A stretch of DNA of 44,825 nt, taken from the IMG/VR virus record IMGVR_UViG_3300044957_001200, positions 1-44,825 of that record. One strand, given 5' to 3'. This document shows positions 5,172 to 34,017 of the stretch, in pieces (within the stretch, counting starts at the first letter, position 1; each line of letters opens with the position of its first letter). Source of the DNA: a virus. The position numbers were made by a program, and so were the translations under genes. Under the pieces are notes generated by a model. The model was not told the DNA's origin. It was given only the letters and a program-made list of their open reading frames with translations, and did no database searches.

Positions 5172-5957
5172 ATGAAGACCCTTTATTTTGTGGCCGGTCT
5201 GCCTCGTTCAGGGAGTACCATGATAATTAATCTGCTAAAACAAAACCCCCAGGTAGAAGGATATGCGGTGAGCTCCTTGAGTTCGTTGATTGCCAATATT
5301 ATTGCCAATTGGAATAATATGGAAGCCAATCGTGAATTTCCCGATGAAAATGCAAAAATAAATGTATTGAAAGCTGTTTTAAATAATTATCATAATGCTT
5401 CTAGTAAAGAAATAGTTTTTGATAAAGACAGAATGTGGGTTACCCAGATTGGATTGCTTAAAAAACTATTACCTTATGATATTAAAATGTTGTGTCCGGT
5501 AAGAAGCCCAGCGGAAATTATTACTTCTTTTGAAAAGATTAAAAGGAATAACCCCCTTTCAGTGGTTGCCGGAGACACCGGAGGATTGACCATTGCTGCC
5601 CGGGCATTATACTACTCTGGACCAGCTGGTATTTTAGGTCTGGCCCATGCAGGCATTAAGGATGCATGCATTCAAGGTCACAAAGACAATATGTTATTTG
5701 TTGATTACAATAGATTTTGTAATAGTCCCAAGAGTCAAATGAAAAGAATATATGATTTTTTTCAACTGCCTAAATTTGAACATAATTTTAAAAAGATAGA
5801 ACAAACCGAGACTTATAATGATCTGGCCACCAGTTTACCCGATCTACATAAAATAAAACCGTCGGTGGATAGAACTGTGACTAACTGTGTGGAGTATATC
5901 GGATTGGATTTATACGAGCAGTATAACCGGGAAATCTTCTGGGATGCATGGATATAG
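5172..5957 (+). CDS. PAPS-dependent sulfotransferase
   Basis: 261 residues. The N-terminus has the 5'-phosphosulfate-binding loop GLPRSGST (residues 9-16) directly after the first beta-strand. The 3'-phosphate-binding strand and helix appear as VRSPAEIITSF (110-120), with Arg111 and Ser119 in the usual R-x7-S spacing. Length and motifs fit the Sulfotransfer_3-type family, which transfers sulfate from PAPS to a hydroxyl or amine of a glycan, peptide or small molecule. It lies between two glycosyltransferases and its last 10 bases overlap the next gene, so glycan sulfation is the likeliest job. It is a cytosolic enzyme with no signal peptide or membrane anchor. The acceptor is unknown. Confidence 0.85.
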   Translation: MKTLYFVAGLPRSGSTMIINLLKQNPQVEGYAVSSLSSLIANIIANWNNMEANREFPDENAKINVLKAVLNNYHNASSKEIVFDKDRMWVTQIGLLKKLLPYDIKMLCPVRSPAEIITSFEKIKRNNPLSVVAGDTGGLTIAARALYYSGPAGILGLAHAGIKDACIQGHKDNMLFVDYNRFCNSPKSQMKRIYDFFQLPKFEHNFKKIEQTETYNDLATSLPDLHKIKPSVDRTVTNCVEYIGLDLYEQYNREIFWDAWI

Positions 5958-13344: not shown

Positions 13345-16300
13345 ATGGCTCAAAATATTGGCGAGGCGCAGATTAATTTATCAGTTAATACTTCCCAAAT
13401 GGAAAGGGAAGTTTCAGCTGCGTTAAAAAGACTAGAAAGTAGAGGTTTTAATTTAGGTCAAGGAATTAATTCTAGAGCTTTTACTCAACCTCTGGGTCGT
13501 ATTACTGGGGCAGCAAATGAGTTCCAAAAGTCATTGGACGCTTCAAATGCTCGTGTTATTGCATTCGGTGCATCTGCAGGAGCTATTTACAATGTTCAAA
13601 GAGCCTTCACAGCTTTAATATCTAGCACTATAGAAGTTCAAAAATCTTTAACAGATATTAATGTCATATTAAATGCTGGCACAAAAACATTAAGCCAATT
13701 TGGAGATCAATTATTTGAAATAGCTAAAAACAGTGGTCAAACATTTGCTACAGTAGCCACAGCAGCTGGAGAACTTGCTCGTCAGGGTTTAACTTTAGAA
13801 CAAACATTAAAGAGAACAAGCGATGCATTAATTTTAGCTCGTCTTTCTGGTTTAGATGCAGCTTCAAGCGTAGAAGCTTTAACAGCTTCAATAAATTCTT
13901 TTAATAATTCAGCTTTAGATTCTACTCAAATTGTAAATAAATTAGCTAGCGTTGATGCTGCATTTGCAGTAAGTTCTGCAGATCTTGCTGAAGCCTTAAA
14001 ACGAGTTGGTAGTTCAGCGCAAGATGTAGGAGTTAGTTTCGATGAATTATTAGCTATTGTTGCTAGCGTTAATCAAACTACCGCGCGAGGTGGAGCAGTT
14101 ATCGGTAACTCATTAAAAACTATTTTTACTAGAGTTCAAAGAACTGATGTATTAGATCAACTAGAAGGTTTAGGTATTGCTGTTAGAGATCTGCAAGGAA
14201 ATACAGCTCCAGCGATTCAAATTTTAACCGGTCTTGCTACTAAATTCGATCAATTAGGAGCAGCTCAAAAAGCTCAAATTGCAGAGTTGGTCGGCGGCGT
14301 ATTTCAAATTAACGTATTAAAAGCTGCATTAGGAGATTTAAGTAAAGAATATTCAATTTATGGAAATGCTTTAAAAACAGCTACAAATGCGGGTGATGAG
14401 GCTATTAGAAGAAATGAAGAATTAAATAAAACTTTAGCGGCTCTATTAAATAAAACTTTTGCAAATCTTACTAAGGTTGGAAGTGAAATCGGCGCTTTAT
14501 CATTTCAACCAGCCATAGAAAAAGTTTTAGGAGGATTAAATACGGCTTTAGAATCATTTGATGTTAAGGGAGATAGCATAGGAAGTAAAATAGGAAAAGG
14601 AATTTTTGATGGTATTGGATCTTTTATCTCTGGTCCAGGATTAGCTTTATTAATTGGAGTATTTGGAAAGATTTTTCTTAATCTTGCTAAATTTACTACT
14701 GACGCAGTTAAAACCGTATTAGGCTTAAATAGAGAAGCTCAAGCTCAAGCCCAGATACAAGAAAGAATAAACGCTATTTTATCTCAAAATCCGGCTTTAG
14801 TTCAAAATATTTTAAATAAACAAGTATCTCTTTTGCAGGTAGAAAAAGATATTCTCACTGTAATACAAGCTCAAACTCAAGCTCGCCAACAATCTACCGC
14901 AATAGCTGCGACACTTTCTCGTGGTTTAATGTCTCGTGGAGTAACATCTGAAAAAGGCGTTATTAGAGCAAAAAGCCAAGGTTTTATTCCTAATTTTAGC
15001 GCAAATAAAGAAATAATGGGAGCAATAGCTGGCGGTTATATGCCAGGAAAAATTCGTTCTATGAATATCCCTAATTATGGAAGAGTTACTTATAATAGCG
15101 CTGAAGAAGTAAAAAAATTCGAAGGATTAAAACAGCCTGGAATTATGCCTCCAGAAAGTAGCGAAGCTGGCAAGAATTATAAACAAAAATTTAAAGATAA
15201 ATATGGAATTGATCCTTATGCTAGTAGCGGATTTATTCCTAATTTTGCAGGTAGACCAACTACTCAAGCTCAAACAGACATAATGATAAAAAAAGGATAT
15301 GTAAAAGCTAGTGGTAATGAATTAAAACAATATTTAGATACAAAAGAAGGCAAAATAGAAGGGGCAAAATTAGGAGTTGTACCACTATATGGATCATATT
15401 GGGTGCCAGAATCAAAATATAATAAATTAGTTTTTAATTCTAAAAAATATTTAGAAGATACCGCAGCAAAAAAAGGAAGACTATATGAAAAAGGTGGAGG
15501 TAAAATAAGAGATTATGTATTGGTATATCCTGGATTTAGTAATGCAGATATGTCTTTTCCAACTATAGGCAAATCTAAAGATGGTAAACAAGTTGGTTTT
15601 TATGCAGTTCCATTTCCAGGGGAATTAAAAAGTAAAAAAAATTCAATTATAGGTCCAGGTATTTATGGAAATGCAATTAATGCTTTAGTAGATTCGTCTT
15701 CTAACTTTTTAACTGGTTTAGCGGGAGTTAATCCAGAGATTATTAAAAAAGCGCAATTTAAAAGATATTTAAAAAGTAACATATCTCAAGATCAAATTGG
15801 TACAATAGTTGGTAACGCTTTTGAAGGAGGAATTTTAGCTGCGTTAAATATAGTTCCATCTGATCGTACTCGTGTTTTAGATTTAACTAGTAAAGAATTA
15901 CAGCAGCTAGGAAAAACTTTTAAAAATCCAGTATTAGATAATGAGAAATGGAAAGGAGGAGATTTTAAAAATTCTCTTTCCCTTGACAATAGAAATAGCA
16001 TGGCTGAAAAAATTATTACTAACAGCATGGAAAAAGCTCTTGGATTTATACCTAATTTTTCTCCATTAAAAAGAGCTTTTGAAACAGAAAAAAATCTTGG
16101 TGGTCAGCCTACTTTAGATTATAAAGAAGGACTTGGATTATATGTCAGAGATAGAGCAACTCAACCAAATTTCGCAGCAGTAATGAAAGACCATCCAGAG
16201 GGATTACAGAAAGCAATTAAAAACTCCAAAAATATGCAAGGTTTAGTATCAAATGGATTTGTGCCTAATTTTGCTCCAGCCGGTTTTGATCCAATGACTT

Positions 16301-19300
16301 TATTTTTTACAATGCAAAGTTTTATGGGAATGGGCCAGAATACTATGGATCAAGCTGTAATGCAAGAAGAAAGAAATAAATTGGCTAGAATTTTAAAAGA
16401 AAGAAGAGCTGCTCAACAATTATTAGCTCAAGCAGAAAAAGCAGAAGTTAAAGATCAAAAATTAATTACAACGCTTACTCAAGAGAAAGCAGAATTTGAA
16501 GCAGCAGAAAGTCGTCAAAGAGCTTCTATGGAAAATCAAATGGGCGTATTTGCGAGAAATCCTAGAGGTCGAATTGTTGGTGGAATAGGCGGAGCAGCAG
16601 GAAGATTTATGGGGAGATATGGAACAGGAATAGCGTTAGCTGCGCCATTACTTTCTGGCGTAGCTAGCGAATTTGTTGGAGATGATGTTACTCGTGGAGG
16701 TAGAGCAACTAAAGCTGGAGTAACAGGTCTAGGTACGGTAGCTTCTTATGCTGGAATAGGAGCAATGGTAGGAAGTGCTATACCAGGTTTAGGCACAGGA
16801 GCAGGAGCTATAATCGGTGGCGGGTTAGGAGCAATTTCTGCTGCAACTACCGCGATTAAAGAATTTAATGACATAATGCCAGAATTAAAAAATAGAGCAG
16901 AAAAAGCTCAAGAAAGTTTAAATAATGTAAATTCTGCAACTCAGTTGCTTTCTACATCTTTAGAAACTCTTTCAAGTATCCAAAATAATACAAGTTTGAG
17001 CACGGAACAAAGAGTAAGACTACAAGAAAAAGCAACGGAAGATCTTGCAAGTAGTATAGCAAAATTAAATGAAGCTCTTCCAGGAGCAGGGGCTGAAATC
17101 GAGAATCTTTATCGTAAAGTTGGAGATACCTCCGAATTAAAAACTAAAATTTCAGAACTTCAAGCAGAAGCTCAAAAATCTTCTCAAGCAGTAATATCTG
17201 GCACAAGAGTAGTTTCAAGCTCGAAAAAAATAGAAGATTTGCTTAGCCCAGGAATGTTTAGTCCTTCTCAGTTATTAAGATTATCTCCCAATATTGATTT
17301 GAGAGATTTACAAATTGCAAATGAAAAACAATTAAAACCAACGGAAAGAAGACAATTAAATGAAGACGTAAGGATTGGTGCAGAAAGTGTGGCTGGATTA
17401 TTTAATAATTTAAGTAATACGGAAAGAAATATTCAAAGTTCAAAAATTCAAGAATTAATAAATACTTTTAATTCTAAAGGTCTTTCAGGATTAAAAGATC
17501 TTATATCGGGACTTGTAAAAAATGGAGAAGACGCAGCTTATATTTCGGAAATACTTAATGAAATTAATCCTGATACTTTAGAGAGATATTTTAATAAATG
17601 GTTAGAGCTACAAAAATCTGCAGAAAGAACAGAAAAATTAATAGCAGAAACAAATGCAGCATTTGCTAGAGGAGAAATGCCTATAACAAGAATAGAAGAC
17701 TTACAAAGACAATTCGCTATGCCTGGAGGAATTACTCCTGCCGCTTTAGGAAGAATAGATTTTAATAAGATGGAACAAAATTTAAGTGGTCAAAAAAATC
17801 AGAATTTTGCTGAACAATTTGCTACCGGATATAGAGAGTTGAGTGATTCGTTGGGATACGGAGCAGATAGAATAAAATATCTCAGTGAATATACTCAGCA
17901 AGCAGCAGAGATACAAAAAGATTGGAATAATGGTGCAATATCAACAACTCAAGCTTTTGAAAGATTAAAAATAGCTATAGATAAAATTGAGTTTGAAAAA
18001 AATGCGCCATTTATGTTTTCTGGAGAAAGAGCTCAAGCAAGACAAGACATATTAGAAAAACAATTAAAACAAGGTAATTTTGCAGAAGGGTTAGATCCTC
18101 TTAATTCTTTCTTTGATCGCTTTGGAGATAATGCGGCTACGACTGCAGATAAAATTAATAAATCTTTTGGTAATCTAGCTGAAAATTTACAAACCGGATT
18201 TGAAGACGCTTTTGGAGCATTTGTCGATGGAACAAAAACCGCAGATCAAGCTTTTAAAGATATGTTACTTAGCATATCTCAACAAATTATTAAGGAACAA
18301 TTTAGTATTGGTATGCGTGGTCTTATAGGCGCATTTACAGGTGGAGGTGGATTTGGATCTGCAGGTGGAGGAAATAGTGGTGGATTTTTAGGAGGAATAT
18401 TTAACAGTATATTTGGCGGTGGCAAAGCTAAAGGAGGATTAATTAAAAAATATAGTGGTGGCGGTTATGTAGATGGCGGGAGTGGAGTAAAAGATGACGT
18501 TCCAGCTATGCTTACAGATGGCGAATATGTATTAAGAAAAAGCGCTGTTAATAAATATGGTATAAATGCTCTAAATATGCTTAATCAGGGCGGAATGATA
18601 AAAGGATATGGTGGTGGGGGTGGAATACAAGCAATGGGTATCCGAGGCGCAGATAGAAGCGCTTCAACATTTATTGAAGAATTATTTTTTCCCAGAAATG
18701 ATGTATCAAGTTATTTAAACGATAGATTTTTACAAGCTAATAACAGAATGGTGTTTAGAGGAGGCAAAGGTGGAAAAATGTTAAGTATGCCCATTCCTTT
18801 TACAAAATCTTTACAAGGAGGAATACCAGTTACCGGTAAAGCTTTACATGCTACTCCACATTTTCAACAGGCCGCAGGATATGCAAACAGTGCGCTTGCT
18901 ATGCGATTCCAGAACGTAGCAGGAAAACTATTTTATGTTAGTGGATCAGAAGATAATGTACCATTTGCATCAAAAGCAAAGACGGTTCAAGCTTTTTCAG
19001 GTTTAGAAAAGCGGCTTGTAATGCGTCCTGGTATGGGAGGATCTGTATATTCGCAAGCTATGGGCTTAAAAGTATCTGGAGTAAAATTAGGAGATTATTT
19101 CGATGCAAGAGTTTCAGATAAAGTCCTAAATAATTTACCCTTATATCAAAGACAGCTTACTTCACTTTCACAATATGATGGACTAGAATTAAATGCTATG
19201 GGAGGAAGAAAAGATCGAACATTTTTAGTAATGAGAGATAAAGCTGTAAACATGCCAGCATTTCTTAGAAGACAAATAGATAGAGAAATTAAAGACGCAA

Positions 19301-22300
19301 AAAGATCTAATCCAAATTACATGGATAAAGCTGCAAGAGGTCGTTATTTTGATTCTTTAAAAAGCGCTAAAAATGCAAGAGGCATGGGACCTACATCTGC
19401 ATTTCTTGATGATGTAAGAATGGCCTGGAGTTTACAAAAGCCTATAGAAGTTTCAAAACCTGGTACAACACCAACTATTTCTCCCACTATGAGCTCTGTA
19501 GCAAAACCTTCTTTATTTAGTAGAGGATTAAAGCCACTTGGCAACCAAAACATAGATTATTTCTCAGACCCTAACAAATTTTACAGGGTTGTGCGCGGGC
19601 AAGATGTTTACGATGATATCGTAGAGTCACAAAAAATTAGAACGGCAGGTAGTCCAACATATCGGGGAGCTGATTATGACCCAACGGCATCGGGAAAAAT
19701 TAGACTAGATGGTAGGCCAACTACGTTTCCGTCTTTCGCCAAGGGACAGGCAAGCATGAGCTATGCTTCAGGTGATCCGAATCACTACATTATTGAGACT
19801 GGGGATAAATCACTACAACCCTCTAAAATGGGAAGACACGGCAAAGCCGGTACTCATTTCCCGACAGATGAAGCTGGAAACCATTTAAAAGAAATGGATG
19901 CCAAAAAAACCAAAATATGGAAACATATTGGGGGAGGTCAATACAAACCAGTATCCCCAAGGCTTCAAAAAATTGGGAAATCGCTTTTGGGTTTAGGCAA
20001 CAATGTTGCCAAAGGACTAGCCACAAGATTTGGTAGTCCTTTATTAAAGACAGGAGTCAAAATGCTTGGAGTTGCAGGAGGAATATTTGGTAATCTTGAT
20101 TTATTTGATCAATCGATGGCCGAACTAGGATATTTTCCTGGCGGTGGAAATAATATCTTGTCTAAAGGTGGCAGAATTAGAGGTTATGCAACAGGTGGAA
20201 GTATTAACAGTCTGCTTGTAAATCAATATGATTTTTATGGAGCAGCTGGAGAAAAATTAAATGAATATTATATGCCCGAAGCATTCAAAACAACGGTTGG
20301 TTCTCCAAAAGAATTAGCTAATGTACCAGCATTAACAGGAAGATTTAATATATCAGATCTTCTAAGTTCAAGAGCTGTAACTGATGAGAATAATCCAATG
20401 AATGCTCTTAGAACTCAAAGATTTCTTGGTATGCAAAGTTATCAAGAACAAGTAGCAAATTTTAAGACTGGATATAATGAACAATATCGTCAAGTAGAAG
20501 AACAGAGAAAAGAAGCTCAACGCTTAGCAGACGAAGAGAACGCGAGAAGAATGGCAGCTTATAATCAACAAAGAATGGGAACTCTTATAGGAGGATTATT
20601 AAGCGTAGGATTTTCAGCGGTCTCACCATTTTTAGGAGGCATGGGAGGAGGTGGAGGTTTTGGAGGAATATTTGGAGGAATACAGAACATAGCTCAAAAT
20701 GTTGTTCAAGGAATCTTTAGTGGCGCTGGTCAAGGCGGTGGATCTCAAACAATGAGCGCTTTTCAAAAAGAGATGATAGCTAAGCAGAACGAACAAGCCA
20801 TAACTTCGTATCAAAATTATGGATTTAATGATTTTAGAAAACAAGCAAATCTTTTCCCTCAATTTGGTAATCAAGGAGGGTTTGGAGGCGGTATGGGAGG
20901 TGGATCAAATTTTTTACCAACTTCAAGCATAGGTGGATTTCAATTTGGAGTTGGGTTAGGTGCTCCAGCAGGTTTTCAAACTTATACTCAAAATGCACAA
21001 CAAGATTACCTCTTAAATTTTGCTTCACCAGTAACACCGATTGCTCCTGGTCGTAATAATTTAGTTTACGATTTCTTAAATCAAAATACAAATCCATTTG
21101 GCTATAGCAGAGGATATGCAAAAGGTGGATTAATTAGAGGTTATTTTGATGGAGGTGGAGCAAGCAAATATATTACTCCTGATCAACTCGATCTTCCTAT
21201 AAAAGGAAATTTTGGAGAAACAACTACATTAAGACAATTAGGTTTGACAACTAATAGTACTTATGCAGATTTAAATAAAATGAATCAACAAGCTTTTGGA
21301 GGAGGATTTAATAGTCCAGAAGTTATGCAATTTGTGTCCATGATAAGTAGTATGTCTGGATTACCAGGAGGTGGATTTAATAGAATCACTGGAGTAAATG
21401 ATCTATATCATATGACTAGAAGAGCTCCAGACACATCTCATAGAACAGGATATAAAGTAGATTTTACATTAAAAGGCCAAAATAAGTTTTACCAAGAGCA
21501 AAAGAGCATGATAGTAGATAATTTAGAAAAAGAATATGGACTGCAGGCTGGAGCAGATTATGCATTAAATTATGAAGGAATTGGAACTCCTGGTTCTACA
21601 GGAGAACATTTTGATGTTCAATTAAAAAAATCAGGAGTTAAAAAAATAAGAATGATGAATATGGGTATTCCCGCAGATAATACTCAGATCGCGGGCATGA
21701 TCCTAAGTAAAAAAGCTGTAGCAGAATATCTAAATTTACCTCTAAATGCACCTTTTCCTGGAGCAAATACAAATACTATAGCTGGAACGAACATATCCAC
21801 TGTTGGTCCTCAAGCTAATCCTTTCACTAACACTAATCCTATTACTCGCTATCTTACTCCAGACGGACCTACTCGTTCAAATATGCCATATGTTGGTAGT
21901 CAAGGATCTATGACGAATGCGCCTAGCTATATTACTCGTTCTGCTATCCCATATGGACCTACACGTTCAGACATGCCATATGTTGGTAGTAGAGGGTCTA
22001 GAATAGGTACACTAGCTTCGCAAATGCCTATGGGAGGAATGCCAACAACTCAAATCCCTGATGTATCTATAGGCCCTACTAAAAGCCCCATCATGTACAG
22101 CATGGGCGAGGATATTATAACTTCGCCTAGAGTAGCGCAACCTCCGATAACAACTAATGCAAGAGCAACTACGCAAAATTTTGCTAAAAAAGTTAGTGAA
22201 TATTTTCGTGATCCTTTAGGTATACTTCCATCTGGTGGAGGATTGGGGAAAGGAGCAATTCCTACTATCTCAAAAGGTCCAGGCAATATTCCTATAATTG

Positions 22301-23511
22301 GACCTCAAGTTAATGCGCCTACAACATCGCAAAGAGGTGGATTACCCTCTACCCAAGTTAATATACCAGGAGCAAACCAAACTCCGCTTGATCTTAATGA
22401 TCCTATAATTGCAGAATATGTAAAAAGTCAGTCTCAGCTTTTTGAAGAAGCTGCTCAGGCTTCAATGATGCAACTTCCATATTTCAGAGATTTAAGAAAT
22501 ATGGTAGATATGGCGACAGGAAATGCTCCAAATCTTTATCAAAGTGTTGGAAGTCTATATGATGTAAAAAATAAAGGAGATTATGGTAAATTAGCCGCAA
22601 GATTTTCTTCATTCTACGGGAATAATTTCAAGAATAGATATTCTTCATTTGGAGAAAAAGGATTTAATAATTATTTAAATTACATTGGCGCAAGTCCATT
22701 CTCATCTCTCTCTCAATTAAATGCTTTTAAATTTCCAATGACTCCAAATACATATAGTCCATTTGCATTTGGTAGTAGATATTTTGGTGGATTTGGCGGA
22801 ACAGGATATCAATCTGGATTTAATTCTTTTGGAACTCCTTTTAGTAACTGGTTTTCGACTGGCAGTAGATTAGGCATAACTCCAAGCTGGGCAAGTAGGG
22901 CTATTGGAGGTATGATATATGGAGGAACATCTTATAAAGATGATGTTCCAGCAATGTTAATGGGTGGCGAATATGTTATTCGCAAAGATATTGTAGATAA
23001 GATGGGCGAGCCCTTCTTTAATCGTCTAAATAGAGGACAAGTTCAAGGGTTTGCAGAAGGAGGACCAGTAGGTACTAATTTACCATCAGTTGGTATGGAT
23101 CAAAATACCCAGCAAGATAATTCAAGAAATCAATTTGTAGAATCAATTACTAAATTAGTTAAATCTCTAGAGCAATTGAATAAAGGCATTGAAGAGCAAA
23201 ATAGAGAAACTAAAACTCAAAACGAAGGAGCAACTGATACTACAGAATCTGGTGGAGGTGGAGTTACAAATAATATTAATATAAATGTTAACGTGGATCA
23301 AAATGGAAAAACAACAAATTCAACTACACAAGAAGATCAAGGCTCTGGAACAAATCAAGAAACAGATCAAGAAAAATTCAAGAAGACTATGGAAAGATCT
23401 AGAGTCCTTGCGGAATTACTAAGACAACAAGTATTGAAAGTTATCGTTGAAGAACAACGTCCAGGTGGAGTATTATATCAAGGTAGCAAAGGAAGAGACT
23501 TAGGACGTTAA
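13345..23511 (+). CDS. Tape measure protein with inserted enzyme-like domains
   Basis: 3388 residues, the largest gene. Residues 1-400 match the TP901-type TMP core (helical, Ala-rich, with RGGAVIGNSLKTIFTRVQ near 247-264). Four GFIPNF-type motifs follow at 546, 629, 900 and 971; the last reads GFVPNF. Residues about 1085-1172 are a Gly/Ala-rich hydrophobic stretch suited to membrane insertion, then long helices to about 1680. The C-terminal third is Gly-rich and holds repeated GG-x-I-x-GY motifs (near 1695, 1750, 2275, 2595) and two DDVPAML-x2-GEYV(L/I)RK motifs (1717 and 3199). Between these linkers sit two ADP-ribosyltransferase-like regions (about 1765-2230) and an M15-like peptidase (about 2680-2775). 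It sets tail length and is ejected into the host. At 0.15 nm per residue the upper tail length is about 500 nm, less the globular inserts. Confidence 0.92.
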   Translation: MAQNIGEAQINLSVNTSQMEREVSAALKRLESRGFNLGQGINSRAFTQPLGRITGAANEFQKSLDASNARVIAFGASAGAIYNVQRAFTALISSTIEVQKSLTDINVILNAGTKTLSQFGDQLFEIAKNSGQTFATVATAAGELARQGLTLEQTLKRTSDALILARLSGLDAASSVEALTASINSFNNSALDSTQIVNKLASVDAAFAVSSADLAEALKRVGSSAQDVGVSFDELLAIVASVNQTTARGGAVIGNSLKTIFTRVQRTDVLDQLEGLGIAVRDLQGNTAPAIQILTGLATKFDQLGAAQKAQIAELVGGVFQINVLKAALGDLSKEYSIYGNALKTATNAGDEAIRRNEELNKTLAALLNKTFANLTKVGSEIGALSFQPAIEKVLGGLNTALESFDVKGDSIGSKIGKGIFDGIGSFISGPGLALLIGVFGKIFLNLAKFTTDAVKTVLGLNREAQAQAQIQERINAILSQNPALVQNILNKQVSLLQVEKDILTVIQAQTQARQQSTAIAATLSRGLMSRGVTSEKGVIRAKSQGFIPNFSANKEIMGAIAGGYMPGKIRSMNIPNYGRVTYNSAEEVKKFEGLKQPGIMPPESSEAGKNYKQKFKDKYGIDPYASSGFIPNFAGRPTTQAQTDIMIKKGYVKASGNELKQYLDTKEGKIEGAKLGVVPLYGSYWVPESKYNKLVFNSKKYLEDTAAKKGRLYEKGGGKIRDYVLVYPGFSNADMSFPTIGKSKDGKQVGFYAVPFPGELKSKKNSIIGPGIYGNAINALVDSSSNFLTGLAGVNPEIIKKAQFKRYLKSNISQDQIGTIVGNAFEGGILAALNIVPSDRTRVLDLTSKELQQLGKTFKNPVLDNEKWKGGDFKNSLSLDNRNSMAEKIITNSMEKALGFIPNFSPLKRAFETEKNLGGQPTLDYKEGLGLYVRDRATQPNFAAVMKDHPEGLQKAIKNSKNMQGLVSNGFVPNFAPAGFDPMTLFFTMQSFMGMGQNTMDQAVMQEERNKLARILKERRAAQQLLAQAEKAEVKDQKLITTLTQEKAEFEAAESRQRASMENQMGVFARNPRGRIVGGIGGAAGRFMGRYGTGIALAAPLLSGVASEFVGDDVTRGGRATKAGVTGLGTVASYAGIGAMVGSAIPGLGTGAGAIIGGGLGAISAATTAIKEFNDIMPELKNRAEKAQESLNNVNSATQLLSTSLETLSSIQNNTSLSTEQRVRLQEKATEDLASSIAKLNEALPGAGAEIENLYRKVGDTSELKTKISELQAEAQKSSQAVISGTRVVSSSKKIEDLLSPGMFSPSQLLRLSPNIDLRDLQIANEKQLKPTERRQLNEDVRIGAESVAGLFNNLSNTERNIQSSKIQELINTFNSKGLSGLKDLISGLVKNGEDAAYISEILNEINPDTLERYFNKWLELQKSAERTEKLIAETNAAFARGEMPITRIEDLQRQFAMPGGITPAALGRIDFNKMEQNLSGQKNQNFAEQFATGYRELSDSLGYGADRIKYLSEYTQQAAEIQKDWNNGAISTTQAFERLKIAIDKIEFEKNAPFMFSGERAQARQDILEKQLKQGNFAEGLDPLNSFFDRFGDNAATTADKINKSFGNLAENLQTGFEDAFGAFVDGTKTADQAFKDMLLSISQQIIKEQFSIGMRGLIGAFTGGGGFGSAGGGNSGGFLGGIFNSIFGGGKAKGGLIKKYSGGGYVDGGSGVKDDVPAMLTDGEYVLRKSAVNKYGINALNMLNQGGMIKGYGGGGGIQAMGIRGADRSASTFIEELFFPRNDVSSYLNDRFLQANNRMVFRGGKGGKMLSMPIPFTKSLQGGIPVTGKALHATPHFQQAAGYANSALAMRFQNVAGKLFYVSGSEDNVPFASKAKTVQAFSGLEKRLVMRPGMGGSVYSQAMGLKVSGVKLGDYFDARVSDKVLNNLPLYQRQLTSLSQYDGLELNAMGGRKDRTFLVMRDKAVNMPAFLRRQIDREIKDAKRSNPNYMDKAARGRYFDSLKSAKNARGMGPTSAFLDDVRMAWSLQKPIEVSKPGTTPTISPTMSSVAKPSLFSRGLKPLGNQNIDYFSDPNKFYRVVRGQDVYDDIVESQKIRTAGSPTYRGADYDPTASGKIRLDGRPTTFPSFAKGQASMSYASGDPNHYIIETGDKSLQPSKMGRHGKAGTHFPTDEAGNHLKEMDAKKTKIWKHIGGGQYKPVSPRLQKIGKSLLGLGNNVAKGLATRFGSPLLKTGVKMLGVAGGIFGNLDLFDQSMAELGYFPGGGNNILSKGGRIRGYATGGSINSLLVNQYDFYGAAGEKLNEYYMPEAFKTTVGSPKELANVPALTGRFNISDLLSSRAVTDENNPMNALRTQRFLGMQSYQEQVANFKTGYNEQYRQVEEQRKEAQRLADEENARRMAAYNQQRMGTLIGGLLSVGFSAVSPFLGGMGGGGGFGGIFGGIQNIAQNVVQGIFSGAGQGGGSQTMSAFQKEMIAKQNEQAITSYQNYGFNDFRKQANLFPQFGNQGGFGGGMGGGSNFLPTSSIGGFQFGVGLGAPAGFQTYTQNAQQDYLLNFASPVTPIAPGRNNLVYDFLNQNTNPFGYSRGYAKGGLIRGYFDGGGASKYITPDQLDLPIKGNFGETTTLRQLGLTTNSTYADLNKMNQQAFGGGFNSPEVMQFVSMISSMSGLPGGGFNRITGVNDLYHMTRRAPDTSHRTGYKVDFTLKGQNKFYQEQKSMIVDNLEKEYGLQAGADYALNYEGIGTPGSTGEHFDVQLKKSGVKKIRMMNMGIPADNTQIAGMILSKKAVAEYLNLPLNAPFPGANTNTIAGTNISTVGPQANPFTNTNPITRYLTPDGPTRSNMPYVGSQGSMTNAPSYITRSAIPYGPTRSDMPYVGSRGSRIGTLASQMPMGGMPTTQIPDVSIGPTKSPIMYSMGEDIITSPRVAQPPITTNARATTQNFAKKVSEYFRDPLGILPSGGGLGKGAIPTISKGPGNIPIIGPQVNAPTTSQRGGLPSTQVNIPGANQTPLDLNDPIIAEYVKSQSQLFEEAAQASMMQLPYFRDLRNMVDMATGNAPNLYQSVGSLYDVKNKGDYGKLAARFSSFYGNNFKNRYSSFGEKGFNNYLNYIGASPFSSLSQLNAFKFPMTPNTYSPFAFGSRYFGGFGGTGYQSGFNSFGTPFSNWFSTGSRLGITPSWASRAIGGMIYGGTSYKDDVPAMLMGGEYVIRKDIVDKMGEPFFNRLNRGQVQGFAEGGPVGTNLPSVGMDQNTQQDNSRNQFVESITKLVKSLEQLNKGIEEQNRETKTQNEGATDTTESGGGGVTNNININVNVDQNGKTTNSTTQEDQGSGTNQETDQEKFKKTMERSRVLAELLRQQVLKVIVEEQRPGGVLYQGSKGRDLGR
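18640..20040 (+). other. ADP-ribosyltransferase-like double insert within the TMP
   Basis: Codons about 1766-2232 of the TMP interrupt the usual Gly-rich C-terminal text. The first part has MVFRGGK (Arg1805), then ALHATPHFQQAAGYAN and LFYVSG. The second part has FYRVVRGQ (Arg2081), then PSFAKGQASMSYASG (Ser2137/Ser2139) and HYIIETGD (Glu2151). That order, Arg on the first strand, then an STS-like strand, then a downstream Glu, is that of ART-fold toxins. The second part is visibly richer in G+C than the rest of the gene. The fold call is by eye and is not proof of activity. Confidence 0.5.
21370..21670 (+). other. M15-like peptidase domain within the TMP
   Basis: The segment SHRTGYKVDF gives His2699 and Asp2706 in the H-x6-D spacing of M15 peptidases (VanX, endolysins). 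TGEHFDVQ gives a second His at 2755. Together these would bind zinc. The catalytic Glu is not clear (Glu2754 is adjacent to the His instead of three residues before it). Likely role: local peptidoglycan cutting during DNA injection. Confidence 0.6.
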
Positions 23512-26564: not shown

Positions 26565-29500
26565 TTAAACATTGTCTCCTAAATTATATTTAGTTTCATC
26601 ATATTGCAAGGCAGTTATTTTATATCTATATTCTTCTTGCTCCTCAATATCTAAGATTCTAAATTTCTGTGTTTTATCCATATAAGGTTCTAATGACGCT
26701 CCTGGATATTTAACTCCTGGATCGCTAATTCCAGAAACACTTGGACTTTTATTATAATCGTAATTCTCTGGTTCTATTTCTATAGTCCAAACTGTATTTT
26801 GCATTAACGTATGCTCTGTATCGTCTAAAGATTGACCTCCAAAATCAATCTTGGTATATCCCTCAAAATTACCAGTAGTTTCTATCGTCACATAATTACC
26901 AAAAACATTTGTGTCAGTTGGATCAAGAATCGAGTAATTTGATTCAAATTTTATTGTTTGAATCTGCTTTTTTCTTATTAAAGACGTGTCTAACCCTGAA
27001 ACCAATGTCTTTTGTCCATCTGGCTTTGCTACGGTAAATGGGCTATTATTATCTGCAGAAAATTCTAAGACCGCATTTCCTGTTTCTGTTCCTATCTCAA
27101 TATTTCCTGCTGGAGTTAATACGTTAAAATTACATCCGTTTATAGCTTGTAAAAATCCAGATATATCTTCGTACTTAATATCTAAAATTGCATAATTTTT
27201 ATTTAATACGTATGTTCTTCCTCCTAAAATTTTATTTTGCCTATTCTGGTCTTGTATAAAAACTATATCTCCAGGCTTCAAATACATCGCGGGTAAACTC
27301 GTTTCAAAAGTAACTAATTCTGATTCTAGATTCTCTGATAACAAAGTCCATTTCCCTAATCTTTCAGCCTGACCTTCGCTTGTGCATCCAAAGGCACTAA
27401 CTTCAATTTCTTTTATCCCAAATCTAATTAGCCCTTCTCTACTCTCTACATATTTTACTGCAGGTTTATAAAAATTCTCTTTATCATTATATCTGACTAA
27501 CGCTACATTTCTTCTAACTCTTTTACTAGTATTACTATATGTAAATTCTCCATCCTTTACATTACTATTATTAAATATATACAATGGATCTTTTGGTCTA
27601 TCTTGAGAAGTAAATATTAATCCGGCATTATAGAAAACTATTGCTCTAAAAATACTTGCCATATCATTAACAACTTTATAAGCGTCTTCTCTGGTGCTAA
27701 TGAGTACATTACAAGTAAATCTTGGCTCTTTTCCATCTCCTGTTCCTCCCGAACTGACTAATTGATCACAATATTTTGAAATTTCATATAAAGTCCATTT
27801 ATCTGTTAGGTTTGGATCTACATATTTTCCTAATCCATATCTTCTATTAGTAATTAAATCATAAAAACACCAAGCAGGATTATCTGTCCATCCTAAATTA
27901 AAATTTCCATCCCAAATACCATCATAAGTTCTAGAATAAGGATTATAATTACTGGGGATTTTTACTTTTAACAATCTTGTGTCATAGGCTCTTTGTGGTA
28001 TACTAGTAAAATACCTAGAATCAAAAGTGGTTAAAATTCCAGCTGTATGGGGTAAAACAAGAAAATCATCGTAAATTTCAGTAATAGAATCTATTGCACT
28101 TCTTACTACTATATTTGGATCAACGCTTTCATCATAAACAGGCTCAATTTCTATCTCCCATCCAACAGTTGTTGATCTTGTGTATCTATTTAAACCTGTC
28201 CATTCAAATGTTTCGATATAAGGTCCTTGATTTAATTTACCTGCGATTGTTAACGTAGCGTAATCTCTAGCTTCTCCTACTAATAGTCTTTGTCTTTTAT
28301 CTTTATAATCTTGTAAAGAAGCTCGAAAATCACGTTGCAACTTATTAACATCGTTAGCGTATGTTGTATATATCTTACCATCATGTCTATGAGAATAAGT
28401 TGTTCTTCCATTTATGAATTCAGTAAAGTTTGCTGGTTTTCTTTTATATCCGTCTGGACCAGATCCACCTCCAGGACTATCAGGGGGCCAGAATAAACCC
28501 AAAACATCATATTCTTTACTAAAAACTGTATTATAATATTCTTCTTCGCTTATTGTAAATGCTCCTGATGAACTTCCTGTATAATTTGGATTAGGGATTA
28601 ATGTGACTTGTTTTCCTACATTTGGAATATAATCTATTCTTTTTAAATAAAGATAAAAAGTCATTTCCTGTCGATCCATTCTACCGCTGACTGAATTTTT
28701 TGAAGCATCATCGGCGCTTTCCCAAATGGTTAGATCAACAATACTTTTAAATAAACTTAAAGCTTTTAGATGGAGTCTTAAACCATATAAATCTTTAGTA
28801 AGAATTGTTAAAGATTTTTTATAAGTTCTAGAACTTCCATCTTGGAATTTTCTTCTACCAAAAAGTCTTGTTCCAACAATTTTCGTACTAGTTAACCTTC
28901 TGGGCATTTTTATTTTAGATAATAAAGTATTTGCATTTTCATCATATAAAGACACCGTATCAAGATATTGCCCATTGTTTACTTTTCTTGCGTAGAATGG
29001 TTCTTCTAATTTTATATTTTTTAATTCATTTAGTCTTGTATGTCTTGGGGCTGAATCACCATAATCATATGCGAGTCTAATAAATTCAAAATTTAAACTT
29101 CCCTTAGCTGGATAAGTATTATCTGCTATAGGTATCTCATTCCAATATACAGATCTTAATAAAGAATCTGGTCCTTGATATTTAATTATTTTAACTCCAT
29201 TTTTATAACCTATATCTCCTATTGTTGCTCCTGGATTAGGGACTATTTCATAATCTACAATACCTTCGATAGGACCTTCTCCAAGAACGTCTAACAAAGA
29301 TATATTTGTTAAAGAAGTTATGCCTATATCTTTTGTATCTTTTAACGTATTTCCATATCTAAAACCATACCGATCTATTTGTTGTCTATCTCCCACTCTA
29401 CTTACTAAAGTGTGACAATTCCTTGGAATCGAAGAGCTTGGTAATGTATAATTATCGTTCCATGTTCTTGTCCCTTTTCTGACGCCACCATATCTATTAT

Positions 29501-31958
29501 GAACAAAAATTCCTTCTGCAATATAATTATGATATTTCTCTACTTCAAAATTATATACTTTTTCAAAACCGTCGTGCTCCATCTTTAATATTTTTAATTT
29601 CTTTTTGTTGAATGTATACAAATGCTCCCCAACTTTTATATCTAAAAGAAGCTTATATTCATTATTATCAGTTAAAAACGGGTGACATTTTGTACATCTT
29701 ATTTGTGATCCATCTTCTAAAGTCACTTTAGTTATAGGTTCAAGATCTTGACCTTCATCAAAAATTTCTGATATTTTAGAAATTTTTAAATCTTGAGTTT
29801 TATCATCGTAACCATACACTTCATCAGACTGTTTTAACTCTTCTATATTTTTTAATCCATAAGGAGTATAAATTTTTGTTCCAGCTGGAAAGCATGTACT
29901 TGAATAAGTGCATGTATACACATCTCCAGCTCTTGTTGTATATGTGCCTATGAACATACTAAATCTATCTGATCTTAAATTAAATGCGCAAGTATCTGCC
30001 ATTTGTACATAAAATGGATATGTCCCATTTCTATTGGGAATGCCATTTGGATACTTCAAAAGATTACTTTTTGATAATCGTGTTGTTGCTGTTGGGGAAC
30101 TCGTTTCTAAAGAGCCTCCTGTAAAGATAACTTGATGCTCTATTTGTGTTGGACTAATAGTTATTGTTGGAACATTTTCAGCTTGATTAGCGCTAATAGA
30201 GTTTTTGACCGTACTTGTTGCTATGACTGTTAGATTCTCTACAAAAGGAGTAGAAGCTGGACCACTAGAGTTAGCATCTGGAGTATAGCAAACATTTCCA
30301 AGAAGATCTACTTGATTTACAGAAGCGTATCTTATAGCATAGTTTCCTAAGATTGATATGCTAAATTCTGGTTGTATTAAAACTCCAGAGACTCTTCTTG
30401 CCCTTGCGTTTGCAGCGGTTGGATCATCAATGTTAAGCCAGAAGCAACTTTCAGATTCTACTCCTTGCCCAGGAGAAAAAGTAGTATCTGGTATAGATCC
30501 ACCAATATTTGTAATTCCGTCTGGTTTTCCATTTTTTCTTATGGTCTCAAATTCATTTATGCTTATTTTTTTAAAGCTTAAAATTTCATCTCCAGCGCTT
30601 CTTAAATTTAAAATAATTTTATTGTTTTTAATAATATCAAAATTCCAGGAAGGCAAATTTAATCGACTTGGATAACTATTCGCCCCTGTAGGTCTATTAT
30701 CTTTAGTATACGGATTAAAATTAAATGTTAATGTGACTTTTGAACTAGATCCTTTAGCGTTAGAACAGCTTGCGTAAGCGTAAAATGTACCCGCATGCCT
30801 TGGAATTCCTGTAATAGTTTTACTAGTAGAATTAAAAACTAAACCTTCAGGTAAAGAAGAGACAGCTAAAATAGTATGTTTATTATTTAGTCCGGCTAAA
30901 GTTTGATTTCCAATTGCAGTTCCTACCGTACCACTATAAGTTTTAGCAGATATAGTTGGTAAAACATCTGTGGTCTTCTGCTCGCCATATAGTATAGATA
31001 AATTAAAATTTTTTCTATTTCCTGCGTCTGAATTTGGACCATAGATTATAAAACTTAAAGTTGAAGTTTTTATATCTGCTTCGACATTAAGAGCTACTGT
31101 TCCAGTAATAGTTTTAGTATTCGGATTCCATACTAATCCTAAATTTTGTAAGATATTTAAAGAGTTTGCATCTAAACTAGCGCTATACTGATTACTAGGC
31201 AAATTAGTAGTTAAACTATAGCCAAAAGCTTGCCCTCTAAATGCATGAACTGTTGGTGCACTATTTACATATATAGGATCATTCCCATATTGATCCTTGC
31301 TTTTTATTGTTAAACTTTTAAAAGCTTTAAACGTTTCTAATCGAGTTGTTTTATTTTTACCACTGCCTACGCTTATATATCTATTCCCATTTAATATGGA
31401 TTCAATAATACCCGTATAATATCCAACATAGTTAATTAAATTTTTTTTAAATTCTATAATCGTACTATTTGTTCCTACGAATCTCAACCTATCACTAGAA
31501 TTTAAATCTGCTAAAATTCCAAAATCAGTATAATTTAATGATGATACCACTTGTTCTAATTCGACATTAAAAGAAAAAGCAGATCCGTACTTGGCTGTTG
31601 TTGTTGCAGAACTTAAAATAGCTGAAGGAGTTGGATTTACGCCAGGAGTGCCATACATGACTAATCCATTCACAAGACTCCATACAAACCAAAATCCATT
31701 TCCTCTATCAACTCCGTCTATATTAATTTGATTATTAGATGATTCTGGTAAAGGATTAGGGTAAGTTGTGCTTGCAGAAAATATTGGATTATATGCATCT
31801 ACTAAATCTGACACATCTGCTAAAGTTATATCTGTTGAACTAGGTTTGCCTACATCATTATAAACTGTATATCCATCATAAGAAATACCATTTTTTCCTC
31901 TCCAGGAAACTCCTTCGATATATTTATTTGGATCACAATCTTTACATTTTTTTGCCAT
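26565..31958 (-). CDS. J: Lambda J-like central tip protein with N-terminal Ig-like part and Hint domain
   Basis: 1797 residues. Residues 1-688 are beta-rich and include He_PIG-type Ig domains (about 330-410: SLPEGLVFNSTSKTITGIP, then AGTFYAYASCSN). Residues 689-821 are a Hint/intein-like domain. From residue 822 comes the J core, with LLDVLGEGPIEGIVDYEI near its start, beta domains, a Phe/Tyr-rich middle, and a C-terminal pair ending in KFRILDIEEQEEYRYKITA and YDETKYNLG, as in lambda J. J forms the tail tip and contacts the receptor. Placing a self-cleaving domain exactly between the Ig part and the J core suggests processing into two chains. The start is 3 bases after the I stop. The expected M-L-K-I-J order is kept on this strand. 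Confidence 0.88.
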   Translation of the reverse strand: MAKKCKDCDPNKYIEGVSWRGKNGISYDGYTVYNDVGKPSSTDITLADVSDLVDAYNPIFSASTTYPNPLPESSNNQINIDGVDRGNGFWFVWSLVNGLVMYGTPGVNPTPSAILSSATTTAKYGSAFSFNVELEQVVSSLNYTDFGILADLNSSDRLRFVGTNSTIIEFKKNLINYVGYYTGIIESILNGNRYISVGSGKNKTTRLETFKAFKSLTIKSKDQYGNDPIYVNSAPTVHAFRGQAFGYSLTTNLPSNQYSASLDANSLNILQNLGLVWNPNTKTITGTVALNVEADIKTSTLSFIIYGPNSDAGNRKNFNLSILYGEQKTTDVLPTISAKTYSGTVGTAIGNQTLAGLNNKHTILAVSSLPEGLVFNSTSKTITGIPRHAGTFYAYASCSNAKGSSSKVTLTFNFNPYTKDNRPTGANSYPSRLNLPSWNFDIIKNNKIILNLRSAGDEILSFKKISINEFETIRKNGKPDGITNIGGSIPDTTFSPGQGVESESCFWLNIDDPTAANARARRVSGVLIQPEFSISILGNYAIRYASVNQVDLLGNVCYTPDANSSGPASTPFVENLTVIATSTVKNSISANQAENVPTITISPTQIEHQVIFTGGSLETSSPTATTRLSKSNLLKYPNGIPNRNGTYPFYVQMADTCAFNLRSDRFSMFIGTYTTRAGDVYTCTYSSTCFPAGTKIYTPYGLKNIEELKQSDEVYGYDDKTQDLKISKISEIFDEGQDLEPITKVTLEDGSQIRCTKCHPFLTDNNEYKLLLDIKVGEHLYTFNKKKLKILKMEHDGFEKVYNFEVEKYHNYIAEGIFVHNRYGGVRKGTRTWNDNYTLPSSSIPRNCHTLVSRVGDRQQIDRYGFRYGNTLKDTKDIGITSLTNISLLDVLGEGPIEGIVDYEIVPNPGATIGDIGYKNGVKIIKYQGPDSLLRSVYWNEIPIADNTYPAKGSLNFEFIRLAYDYGDSAPRHTRLNELKNIKLEEPFYARKVNNGQYLDTVSLYDENANTLLSKIKMPRRLTSTKIVGTRLFGRRKFQDGSSRTYKKSLTILTKDLYGLRLHLKALSLFKSIVDLTIWESADDASKNSVSGRMDRQEMTFYLYLKRIDYIPNVGKQVTLIPNPNYTGSSSGAFTISEEEYYNTVFSKEYDVLGLFWPPDSPGGGSGPDGYKRKPANFTEFINGRTTYSHRHDGKIYTTYANDVNKLQRDFRASLQDYKDKRQRLLVGEARDYATLTIAGKLNQGPYIETFEWTGLNRYTRSTTVGWEIEIEPVYDESVDPNIVVRSAIDSITEIYDDFLVLPHTAGILTTFDSRYFTSIPQRAYDTRLLKVKIPSNYNPYSRTYDGIWDGNFNLGWTDNPAWCFYDLITNRRYGLGKYVDPNLTDKWTLYEISKYCDQLVSSGGTGDGKEPRFTCNVLISTREDAYKVVNDMASIFRAIVFYNAGLIFTSQDRPKDPLYIFNNSNVKDGEFTYSNTSKRVRRNVALVRYNDKENFYKPAVKYVESREGLIRFGIKEIEVSAFGCTSEGQAERLGKWTLLSENLESELVTFETSLPAMYLKPGDIVFIQDQNRQNKILGGRTYVLNKNYAILDIKYEDISGFLQAINGCNFNVLTPAGNIEIGTETGNAVLEFSADNNSPFTVAKPDGQKTLVSGLDTSLIRKKQIQTIKFESNYSILDPTDTNVFGNYVTIETTGNFEGYTKIDFGGQSLDDTEHTLMQNTVWTIEIEPENYDYNKSPSVSGISDPGVKYPGASLEPYMDKTQKFRILDIEEQEEYRYKITALQYDETKYNLGDNV
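29496..29894 (-). other. Hint / bacterial intein-like domain in the J-like protein
   Basis: 133 residues (689-821 of the J-like protein). It begins with catalytic Cys (CFPAGTKIYTP), has the block B motif T-K-C-H, and ends with YHNYIAEGIFVHN, giving the penultimate His and terminal Asn. The next residue is Arg instead of Cys, Ser or Thr. It therefore resembles A-type bacterial intein-like domains, which cleave or splice inefficiently, and has no homing endonuclease insert. Confidence 0.9.
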
Positions 31959-31961
31959 AAA

Positions 31962-33278
31962 TTAAATTGATAATGAGTTATCGCTCATTGAATTCCCTTG
32001 AATATCTTGAATATTTATGGGATATCCGTGATGAGTAAAATAAAAACTTTTTGTAGGATAATTTTTTTCTGATGCTCCTGCGCCAATTGGAGCTTTTCCA
32101 TCGCTTTCATATTTATTTGCTCTTGATTGAATTCTGTATATTTGATCATACGAACTAAAAATTTGTTGACTACCTATGATTAATCTGCCATAACCTATTG
32201 GTACTGGTCCTCCCTCTCCAATTGTATTTACTGGACCATTAAAAGTGTAAGATGGTTCTCCTCCTCCAGTATCTGGAGAAGCTTCGAAATCTGCTGAAGG
32301 ATTCGCTATTTGTTGCGGGCTAACCATAGGTGGTGGTTTCATTAACAGCATAGAAACTCCTAAAGCTACTAATCCTAAAATGGCTGGAGCTAACATGCCT
32401 AATATACCTAATGAACCTCCACCAGAAACTGGAGCTAAAATTATAGCTAGGAATACCGCGAAAACACTTTTAAATCCACTTCCACCGCCTCCTCCTTTAG
32501 CTCCTCCACCTTGTTTTCCTCCTCCTCCATTATGCACAAAAATATTACTAGCTATGTATGTATGATTTTTCATCACATGAAAATTATAAACTTTTTCATT
32601 TCCATCTTCTTCTATTCTTTCAATAGGCATTACGTCTCCACTTTTATGAATTAGAACATCTCCAACTTGAAAATTTTCAAGAGGAGTAAATCTATTATAC
32701 TCATTAAAAAACCAGTGATTTCCTGTGCTTCTAATTACTGATCCATCCCATAACGTAATTTTTAAAATTTTATTATTTTCATGTTCAAAAACTTTCTCAA
32801 TTATGTCAATTTGTATATTTTTATCTTTATCAAAAGAATATATTTCGTCTCCTTCTTTTAGGTCTTCTATATTTTTTTCACCTTGGGGTGTGGAAATTTT
32901 TGTTCCAGCTGGAAAACATCCTTGCGCACCACCACCGCCTCCTCCACCCGCACCTTCTACGATAGGGATAATATCAATAGTTTTTAACGTTGATCCAAAA
33001 TCCATAAACATTTCAGACTCAGATAATCTTGCAAAATGTTTTTTATTAACGTCTTTATAATTGAGAGGCATTTCTTCCGCTTTAGGAACCCACAAAGGTC
33101 TATGATTAATTAATATTTCATATTTTGCATTCTTTTCAGATTGATCTATAAAAAGTTTTGTTAGCTTTTTTGTGTTAGCTTCTATAGCTCGAAAAGCTTC
33201 TGCAACGCTAGAGACATTTAAATCCCATTCTTCGCCAATCTCTTGACCTAAATATCCATGTAATTTAACTTTAACCAT
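31962..33278 (-). CDS. I: Lambda I-like tail assembly protein with inserted Hint domain
   Basis: 438 residues. Residues 1-110 match the lambda I family (MVKVKLHGYLG, then SSVAEAFRAIEANT). A poly-Gly run leads to a 130-residue Hint domain (121-250), then another Gly-rich run and a hydrophobic segment (about 268-318, VFAVFLAIILAPV and LGLVALGVSMLLM). The C-terminal part has PSYTFNGPVNT and GGPVPIGYGRLIIGSQ, the usual second half of I-type proteins in front of J. The gene overlaps the K gene by 8 bases and lies 3 bases before J. I-type proteins assist tip assembly; the hydrophobic segment may insert into or cross a membrane at ejection. Cleavage by the Hint domain would separate the two halves. 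Confidence 0.85.
   Translation of the reverse strand: MVKVKLHGYLGQEIGEEWDLNVSSVAEAFRAIEANTKKLTKLFIDQSEKNAKYEILINHRPLWVPKAEEMPLNYKDVNKKHFARLSESEMFMDFGSTLKTIDIIPIVEGAGGGGGGGAQGCFPAGTKISTPQGEKNIEDLKEGDEIYSFDKDKNIQIDIIEKVFEHENNKILKITLWDGSVIRSTGNHWFFNEYNRFTPLENFQVGDVLIHKSGDVMPIERIEEDGNEKVYNFHVMKNHTYIASNIFVHNGGGGKQGGGAKGGGGGSGFKSVFAVFLAIILAPVSGGGSLGILGMLAPAILGLVALGVSMLLMKPPPMVSPQQIANPSADFEASPDTGGGEPSYTFNGPVNTIGEGGPVPIGYGRLIIGSQQIFSSYDQIYRIQSRANKYESDGKAPIGAGASEKNYPTKSFYFTHHGYPINIQDIQGNSMSDNSLSI
32529..32918 (-). other. Hint / bacterial intein-like domain in the I-like protein
   Basis: 130 residues (121-250 of the I-like protein). It has the N-terminal Cys (CFPAGTKISTPQG), block B T-G-N-H, and the C-terminal block NHTYIASNIFVHN. 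The next residue is Gly, so the splicing nucleophile is missing, as in the J-like copy. The two domains are clearly homologous but diverged in the middle, so they are not a recent duplication. Confidence 0.9.
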
Positions 33279-34017
33279 TCATGCGCTCCTTATACCTCAA
33301 AACATAACTAGTATGTTTCTTGAAGAAGTTATCATATATATTTACACAAGAAAAAGAATTAAAAGGCTGATGCAAGATCAATCCATCTCCTATATATACT
33401 GCCGCATGCGTAGGGAATTTATCTGAAACTCCAGGAAACATCATCATAATTCCGTCTGATTTATTCAATTTTACTGATTTATCTAATTTGATAAAACCTT
33501 GATTTTTGAAATTAATTTCGTATAAATCTTTTATATCTTCTAAATGTCTTGGATAAATTAAATCTCGAGGAAAATTAATTTTAACCTTTTCCTCTTTTAA
33601 TGCATATTCTTGCATTAATGTAAAACAATCTGACTTGCCCAAGACAAATGGTCTTCCTATATATGGATTACTTTCTTTATTTGGAGAGTAGAAGTTGAAC
33701 ATATTATATTTTACATTATATAATATATAATGAATATTATAAACATTGCTATTATTTTTATCAATCTCACTAAAATCAACACTTTCATTAACGTGTGAAT
33801 GATAACAAGCAATAATTTTACCTAAATTTGAACAATTCAAATAATCTTGTGGAGATATTATAAAATTATTACTTCTATTTTCTGCTCTATTCTTGCATGG
33901 ATATATATCAAATTTATATTCTTTAGATTTGAAGTATATAAACCCACAGATTTCTTCATGAGCTTTTCTAATTGCAAGATCTTTAATGTAATTTTTAATT
34001 TGGGGGTTAAACTCCAT
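33271..34017 (-). CDS. K: Lambda K-like tail protein: JAMM plus NlpC/P60 peptidase
   Basis: 248 residues with two domains. Residues 1-110 are a JAB/MPN metalloprotease: Glu22 and H73-x-H75-x7-S83-x2-D86, the exact JAMM spacing. Residues 120-248 are an NlpC/P60 peptidase with catalytic Cys131 (GKSDCFTLMQEYA) and His204 (THAAVYIGDG). In lambda-like phages K sits at the tip and is thought to cut peptidoglycan, and may also process a tail protein. Both active sites look intact. The gene follows L by 4 bases and overlaps I by 8. The JAMM domain next to two Hint-bearing proteins makes it a candidate partner in tip processing. Confidence 0.9.
   Translation of the reverse strand: MEFNPQIKNYIKDLAIRKAHEEICGFIYFKSKEYKFDIYPCKNRAENRSNNFIISPQDYLNCSNLGKIIACYHSHVNESVDFSEIDKNNSNVYNIHYILYNVKYNMFNFYSPNKESNPYIGRPFVLGKSDCFTLMQEYALKEEKVKINFPRDLIYPRHLEDIKDLYEINFKNQGFIKLDKSVKLNKSDGIMMMFPGVSDKFPTHAAVYIGDGLILHQPFNSFSCVNIYDNFFKKHTSYVLRYKERMNG

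Follow-up and report, generated by a model that had tools for sequence, protein, structure and literature searches.

Two Hint domains interrupt the adjacent tail tip proteins I and J encoded by the IMG/VR virus record IMGVR_UViG_3300044957_001200, and both keep a complete set of catalytic residues while lacking a nucleophile at the +1 position. Judging from their sequences, both are probably active self-processing domains that resemble A-type bacterial intein-like (BIL) domains and act mainly by cleavage, with some BIL-type splicing; we put the probability of this reading at roughly 0.55. All positions below are those of the window, the 44,825-nt stretch of the record that was analysed, in which K, I and J lie on the minus strand.

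The tail tip genes are found in the lambda-type order K-I-J: a JAB and NlpC protein K, a ubiquitin-like I with a plug half, and a TipJ-type J. Gene K (33271–34017) encodes a JAB peptidase together with an NlpC/P60 domain, and both Pfam matches (Prok-JAB and NLPC_P60) are above the cut-off. Gene I (31962–33278) encodes a protein of 438 amino acids, a homologue of the lambda tail assembly or insertion protein I that is interrupted by a Hint domain. Amino acids 1–115 match the tail assembly protein family phrog_32 (E=5e-24) and amino acids 299–373 match the tail protein family phrog_4554. The N-terminal half (amino acids 1–108, 32955–33278) is ubiquitin-like according to the phrog_32 match and to the order of strands and helices in a model of moderate confidence. 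It is followed by a Gly-rich linker (amino acids 109–120, 32919–32954, the EGAGGGGGGGAQG region), by the Hint domain of 130 residues (amino acids 121–250, 32529–32918) and by a Gly/Lys-rich linker delimited in the alignment of I homologues (amino acids 251–270, 32469–32528, beginning GGGGKQGGGAKG). The hydrophobic C-terminal half (amino acids 271–438, 31965–32468) is a homologue of the lambda/T1 plug, with profile matches to the tail proteins 8iyk_I, 9l9p, 25vf and 9e7m.

Gene J (26565–31958) encodes a central tail fibre or TipJ homologue of 1797 amino acids, which matches phrog_31 and phrog_2589 at E<1e-120 and the NCBIfam family lambda_TipJ at E=3e-71. It begins with a clade-specific N-terminal extension (amino acids 1–688, 29895–31958), in which there is a weak match to the Ig-like family He_PIG (E=0.004, below the cut-off); this extension is absent from the J proteins of the Hint-free relatives L138 and L139. 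The Hint domain of 133 residues follows (amino acids 689–821, 29496–29894), then a group of beta strands (about amino acids 822–872, 29342–29495) and the lambda-like core (about amino acids 873–1797, 26568–29341), which is defined by Pfam, phrog and NCBIfam matches. Elsewhere in the window a tape-measure-like protein of 3388 amino acids (PF10145) is encoded at 13345–23511 on the plus strand, the strand opposite to that of L, K, I and J, and its gene is convergent with the gene after J.

The two Hint domains together span 29496–32918, exactly where an earlier note made from the sequence had placed them, and the residues agree with that note's description of two intact domains without a +1 nucleophile. 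With the domain junctions marked by slashes, the I domain reads GGGGGGGAQG/CFPAGTK...VHN/GGGGKQGGG and the J domain CTYSST/CFPAGTK...VHN/RYGGVRK. In Pfam the I domain matches PT-HINT (E=1e-10) and the J domain Intein_splicing (E=1e-11), both above the cut-off. The NCBIfam family intein_Nterm is above its cut-off in both domains, and intein_Cterm is above in J and just below in I. The two share 48% identity, and no further copy was found when the J Hint was used to query the 44.8-kb record. Each has Cys1 and a block B TxxH motif (TxxNH in I) and ends in His-Asn; the next residue is Gly in I and Arg in J, and no endonuclease is present in either. The AF2 model of the I Hint has a pLDDT of about 63–93, and the J Hint is modelled at high confidence with an intein/BIL fold.

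Searching viral contigs with protein I yielded 24 loci, which with the window represent 16 distinct lineages and form a small set of phages, all uncultured. Across an alignment of 14 I and J Hints, some of which are only about 35% identical, Cys1, the block B TxxH and the C-terminal HN do not vary. The +1 residue is Gly in every I and Arg, Gly or Met in the J Hints; Cys, Ser and Thr are absent from this position in all 16 I and 9 J Hint lineages.

In sequence, the nearest match of the I Hint is the Clostridium thermocellum BIL domain of PDB entry 2lwy (E=2e-11 with a single sequence, 9e-18 with a profile). Its fold gives 2lwy (E=3e-12, TMt 0.86) and the Tetrahymena BIL2 structure 6y75 as the first two matches, ahead of all inteins. 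The J Hint is harder to place, as the gp41-1, DnaB and BIL structures score alike. Several features of A-type BIL domains are present: the Hint fold, the C1, TxxH and HN motifs, a +1 position not restricted to Cys, Ser or Thr, and an endonuclease-free length of about 130–140 residues. According to PMC7765530, A-type BIL domains lie in variable parts of proteins that are not conserved. The insertion points seen here, the Gly linker in I and a loop in J, are variable, yet I and J are themselves conserved tail proteins. Inteins usually sit in conserved motifs of their host proteins; canonical class 1 mobile inteins were considered and rejected, there being no +1 nucleophile, no endonuclease and no insertion in a conserved motif.

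The I Hint is retained in all 16 lineages, with C1, TxxNH, NHTYIA or close variants of it, and HN. It splits the Gly linker that separates the ubiquitin-like half from the hydrophobic half. Most I proteins have Gly at the -1 position, and in the alignment the GG(G/A)GK segment that follows the domain is invariant in the group, including a Lys at +5. In L135, L138, L062 and L063, whose I proteins are Hint-free, a short Gly linker stands where the Hint would be, and Lys is missing from most of the Hint-free linkers compared. A Gly/Ser-rich linker of about 140 amino acids occupies this position in the I proteins of L137 and L139, and likewise in that of L136.

The C-terminal half of lambda I forms a trimeric plug in the lumen of the tip. 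When profiles are compared, the I Hint ends at a point corresponding to about residue 96 of the lambda protein. Protein I of lambda and T1 has a ubiquitin-like beta-grasp N-terminal half followed by a Gly linker, and in 2006 it was predicted that the JAB domain of K cuts I at the ubiquitin-like domain's final Gly (PMC1779556). Lambda I has been modelled only from residue 101 (PMC11101478) or as residues 135–223 (PMC10721106), and T1 gp34 as residues 92–163 (PMC11945409); the N-terminal half of lambda I, unseen in these virion models, may simply be mobile.

We propose that in both proteins Cys1 would form a thioester with the preceding residue and the terminal Asn would cyclise, releasing the C-terminal flank. 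The main outcome would be cleavage at one or both ends of the Hint, accompanied by some BIL-type splicing, with cleavage dominant because there is no Cys, Ser or Thr at +1. In I, a cut at the Gly linker would free the hydrophobic plug half from the ubiquitin-like half, a step that K's JAB peptidase has been predicted to perform in lambda-type phages. The active-site residues of both the JAB and the NlpC domains of K are intact in the alignment of all 16 lineages, which rules out the Hint as a replacement for JAB; since JAB is intact in every lineage, the Hint would add to it. In J, the surface loop just before the core would be nicked, and the N-terminal extension would probably be held in place by strand pairing and not by the chain.

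The J Hint sits within the last beta domain just before the core, in a loop that varies in both length and sequence. In the J model there are confident strands before the Hint (residues 141–146) and after it (residues 294–299, 309–314 and 320–333), with a pLDDT of 81–90 up to residue 333 that falls beyond this point. Strand pairing across the Hint was judged from DSSP and the pLDDT of the model, and it suggests that the strands on the two sides form one domain that ends just before the core. On this model a clean border between an Ig part and the core at the J Hint is ruled out, as strands that appear to belong to a single domain lie on both sides. The proposal that both Hints lie at domain borders therefore holds for I, where the Gly linker is such a border, and only approximately for J, whose Hint is placed in the variable loop.

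Nine of the 16 lineages have the J Hint and seven are without it. Six of the latter (L008, L011, L012, L013, L014 and L016) encode a Hint-free J as one fused frame, so the J Hint cannot be a step required for J maturation across the group; it is dispensable. In L010, J is encoded as two frames (L010:7890–7990). The upstream frame, J_N, ends ...GDVYSCRYT and is followed by in-frame TAG and TAA stops, AAGG and an ATG, from which J_C begins MGYGNLRL.... Compared with the window J, the break removes exactly the position of the Hint: the stop precedes the Hint N-junction by two residues, and the start of J_C (MGYGN) aligns to the residue after HN (RYGGV), the position at which the C-terminal cleavage product of the Hint would begin. 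The split is seen in one assembly only, but a sequencing error is unlikely, as two in-frame stops and a ribosome-binding site would be hard to explain in this way. That L010 has two genes for J, separated at the Hint junctions, makes a broken J plausible, and the six lineages with a fused, Hint-free J indicate that J can do without such a break.

The trees of the J Hint and of the J core mirror each other, which indicates that J Hints were inherited with J and that the two Hints have been adjacent since before the group diverged; this bears out the earlier view that they are homologous and have long been kept side by side. On a tree of K, I (without its Hint) and J, parts of which are weakly supported, the J Hint requires four losses if it is ancestral (Dollo) or two Fitch changes, for example one loss and one regain. 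No decayed J Hint was seen among the lineages compared. Pairwise dN/dS is about 0.04–0.26 for the I Hint and 0.08–0.31 for the J Hint, and both domains are thus under purifying selection. This shows that the Hint must work when present; selection alone does not imply that it is of benefit, because a dead Hint in an essential protein would be harmful. The retention of all catalytic residues, together with purifying selection, makes some form of self-processing by the I and J Hints very likely.

The main rival to cleavage is that BIL-type splicing prevails, which we consider possible though rather doubtful. After cyclisation of Asn, the amine of Gly+1 in I or of Arg+1 in J would attack the Cys1 thioester and the flanks would be joined; the Hints would then be near-neutral passengers, kept active because unprocessed I and J would be non-functional. 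The pattern of conservation would be the same if the Hint spliced well. Gly at +1, and at -1 in most I proteins, would sterically favour aminolysis, and the C. thermocellum BIL with a non-nucleophilic Ala at +1 reportedly splices as well as self-cleaves (Dassa 2004), but a +1 nucleophile is found in none of the 16 I and 9 J lineages and there are no signs of an endonuclease or of mobility. The fused, Hint-free J proteins resemble a spliced product, whereas the J of L010 has the broken and not the joined form. Clean loss of the J Hint several times, with no decayed copy, is what a passenger might show, but the I Hint has never been lost, and insertion in a Gly linker and a variable loop is not the usual intein placement. 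Self-processing mainly by cleavage is the best explanation because the catalytic residues are invariant, the +1 residue is non-nucleophilic, the nearest structures are BIL domains and dN/dS is low, and because the I Hint is kept throughout, the J of L010 is split, the N-terminal half of I is unmodelled in lambda and T1 virions and cleavage at this site was predicted in 2006. From this we infer the activity of the Hints, the preponderance of cleavage over splicing and a role in tip assembly.

It is improbable that the I Hint instead transfers the ubiquitin-like half from the thioester to a lysine or another amine. It would then be an ATP-free dispenser, forming a conjugate with Lys+5 of I or with a lysine of another tail protein, which the JAB domain of K could edit. 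Tetrahymena BIL2 lies between ubiquitin-like domains and is reported to splice with formation of an isopeptide bond to Lys and to release the ubiquitin-like domain as a dispenser would (PMC8616854, PMC9200820). Protein I shares the order of ubiquitin-like domain, Gly and BIL, and BIL2 structures are among the closest matches in both fold and sequence; the RGG end of the ubiquitin-like domain, a feature of BUBL proteins, is absent from I, in which this half ends EGAGGGG.... The invariance of Lys+5 in the group, and its lack in most of the Hint-free linkers compared, would suit conjugation, but the aligned proteins are related, so the invariance does not represent many independent events, and a Lys in a Gly linker could have other reasons. 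The J Hint, moreover, follows no ubiquitin-like domain. It is very improbable that the Hints are unreactive folded spacers in the tip, as the missing +1 nucleophile might suggest, since A-type BIL domains function without one and inert spacers need neither the Cys1, nor the block B Thr and His, nor the terminal HN that are invariant down to about 35% identity.

Beyond this group, in the uncultured phages L062–L064 and L067 a Hint with Gly-rich flanks is found at the N-terminus of J shortly before the core, with an I gene adjacent. Unlike the window, these phages have a Hint-free I and a J without the N-terminal extension of about 690 amino acids. The +1 residue is Thr in L062 and L064, and in L067 it is Gly, with an insertion within the Hint. 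At least one further phage group has thus acquired Hints in the I/J region; the entry there may have been independent, although the L062–L064 and L067 branches are long. In the phage collection no record covers a Hint with I or a Hint with J; the arrangement was not found among the cultured phages searched, in which Hint matches occur only in other contexts, helicases included. The core of the L064-group J is matched by 1374 phage records, none of which covers 80% of Hint plus core. A host and prophage search of bacterial genome contigs found no relatives of I, a DNA-pattern scan of bacterial genome contigs returned only other kinds of protein, and a scan with the J alignment added no lineage. 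The open-access literature that was searched contains no description of an intein or Hint domain in either protein I or protein J.

The searches also returned large proteins of candidate-phyla bacteria (L207, L209, L211, L213 and L215) with a Hint whose C-terminal junction reads HN/(D/Q/E)KG, just after which is a segment that may be of the alpha-2-macroglobulin type. L214, a Legionella MAG, and L070 have single proteins with two tandem Hints. In the window itself, a protein of 1050 amino acids with RCC1 repeats (951–4103, plus strand; 19 stretches, E=1e-209) is possibly a receptor-binding or fibre protein, and a sulfotransferase-like gene (5172–5957) lies near it.

If the Hints act as proposed, the tail tip would be built with intrinsic protein self-processing, a step that none of the open-access papers searched describes for phage tails. 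The I Hint lies at the JAB cut site predicted in 2006 and would give an independent handle on whether the plug can enter the tip only once the ubiquitin-like half has been removed. The J alleles (with a Hint, split into two genes, or fused) amount to a natural experiment that asks whether a break in J ahead of the core is tolerated.

The C. thermocellum A-type BIL 2lwy (Amitai 2003; Dassa 2004) shares with the window domains the Hint fold, a length of about 130 amino acids, C1, TxxH, HN and the absence of an endonuclease; the window Hints differ in being a paralogous pair in the tail tip proteins I and J of a syntenic K-I-J cassette. Mini-inteins such as gp41-1, DnaB and DnaE share the fold and motifs, whereas the window Hints have no +1 nucleophile and lie in a variable loop or a linker and not in a conserved motif. 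In Tetrahymena BUBL1 BIL2 (6tmm/6y75) the BIL domain directly follows a ubiquitin-like domain, as it does in I and not in J, but I is a phage tail protein and not a poly-ubiquitin chain, and no second ubiquitin-like domain follows its Hint. The pairing in I is reminiscent of the Tetrahymena loci and would mean that this architecture arose twice. The I proteins of lambda and T1 type, which occur with K and J in the same order, have the same ubiquitin-like half, Gly linker and hydrophobic plug half. The 2006 account describes a Gly linker alone at this site, and the word 'intein' does not occur in it (PMC1779556), whereas in the window I the same linker holds a Hint domain of 130 amino acids.
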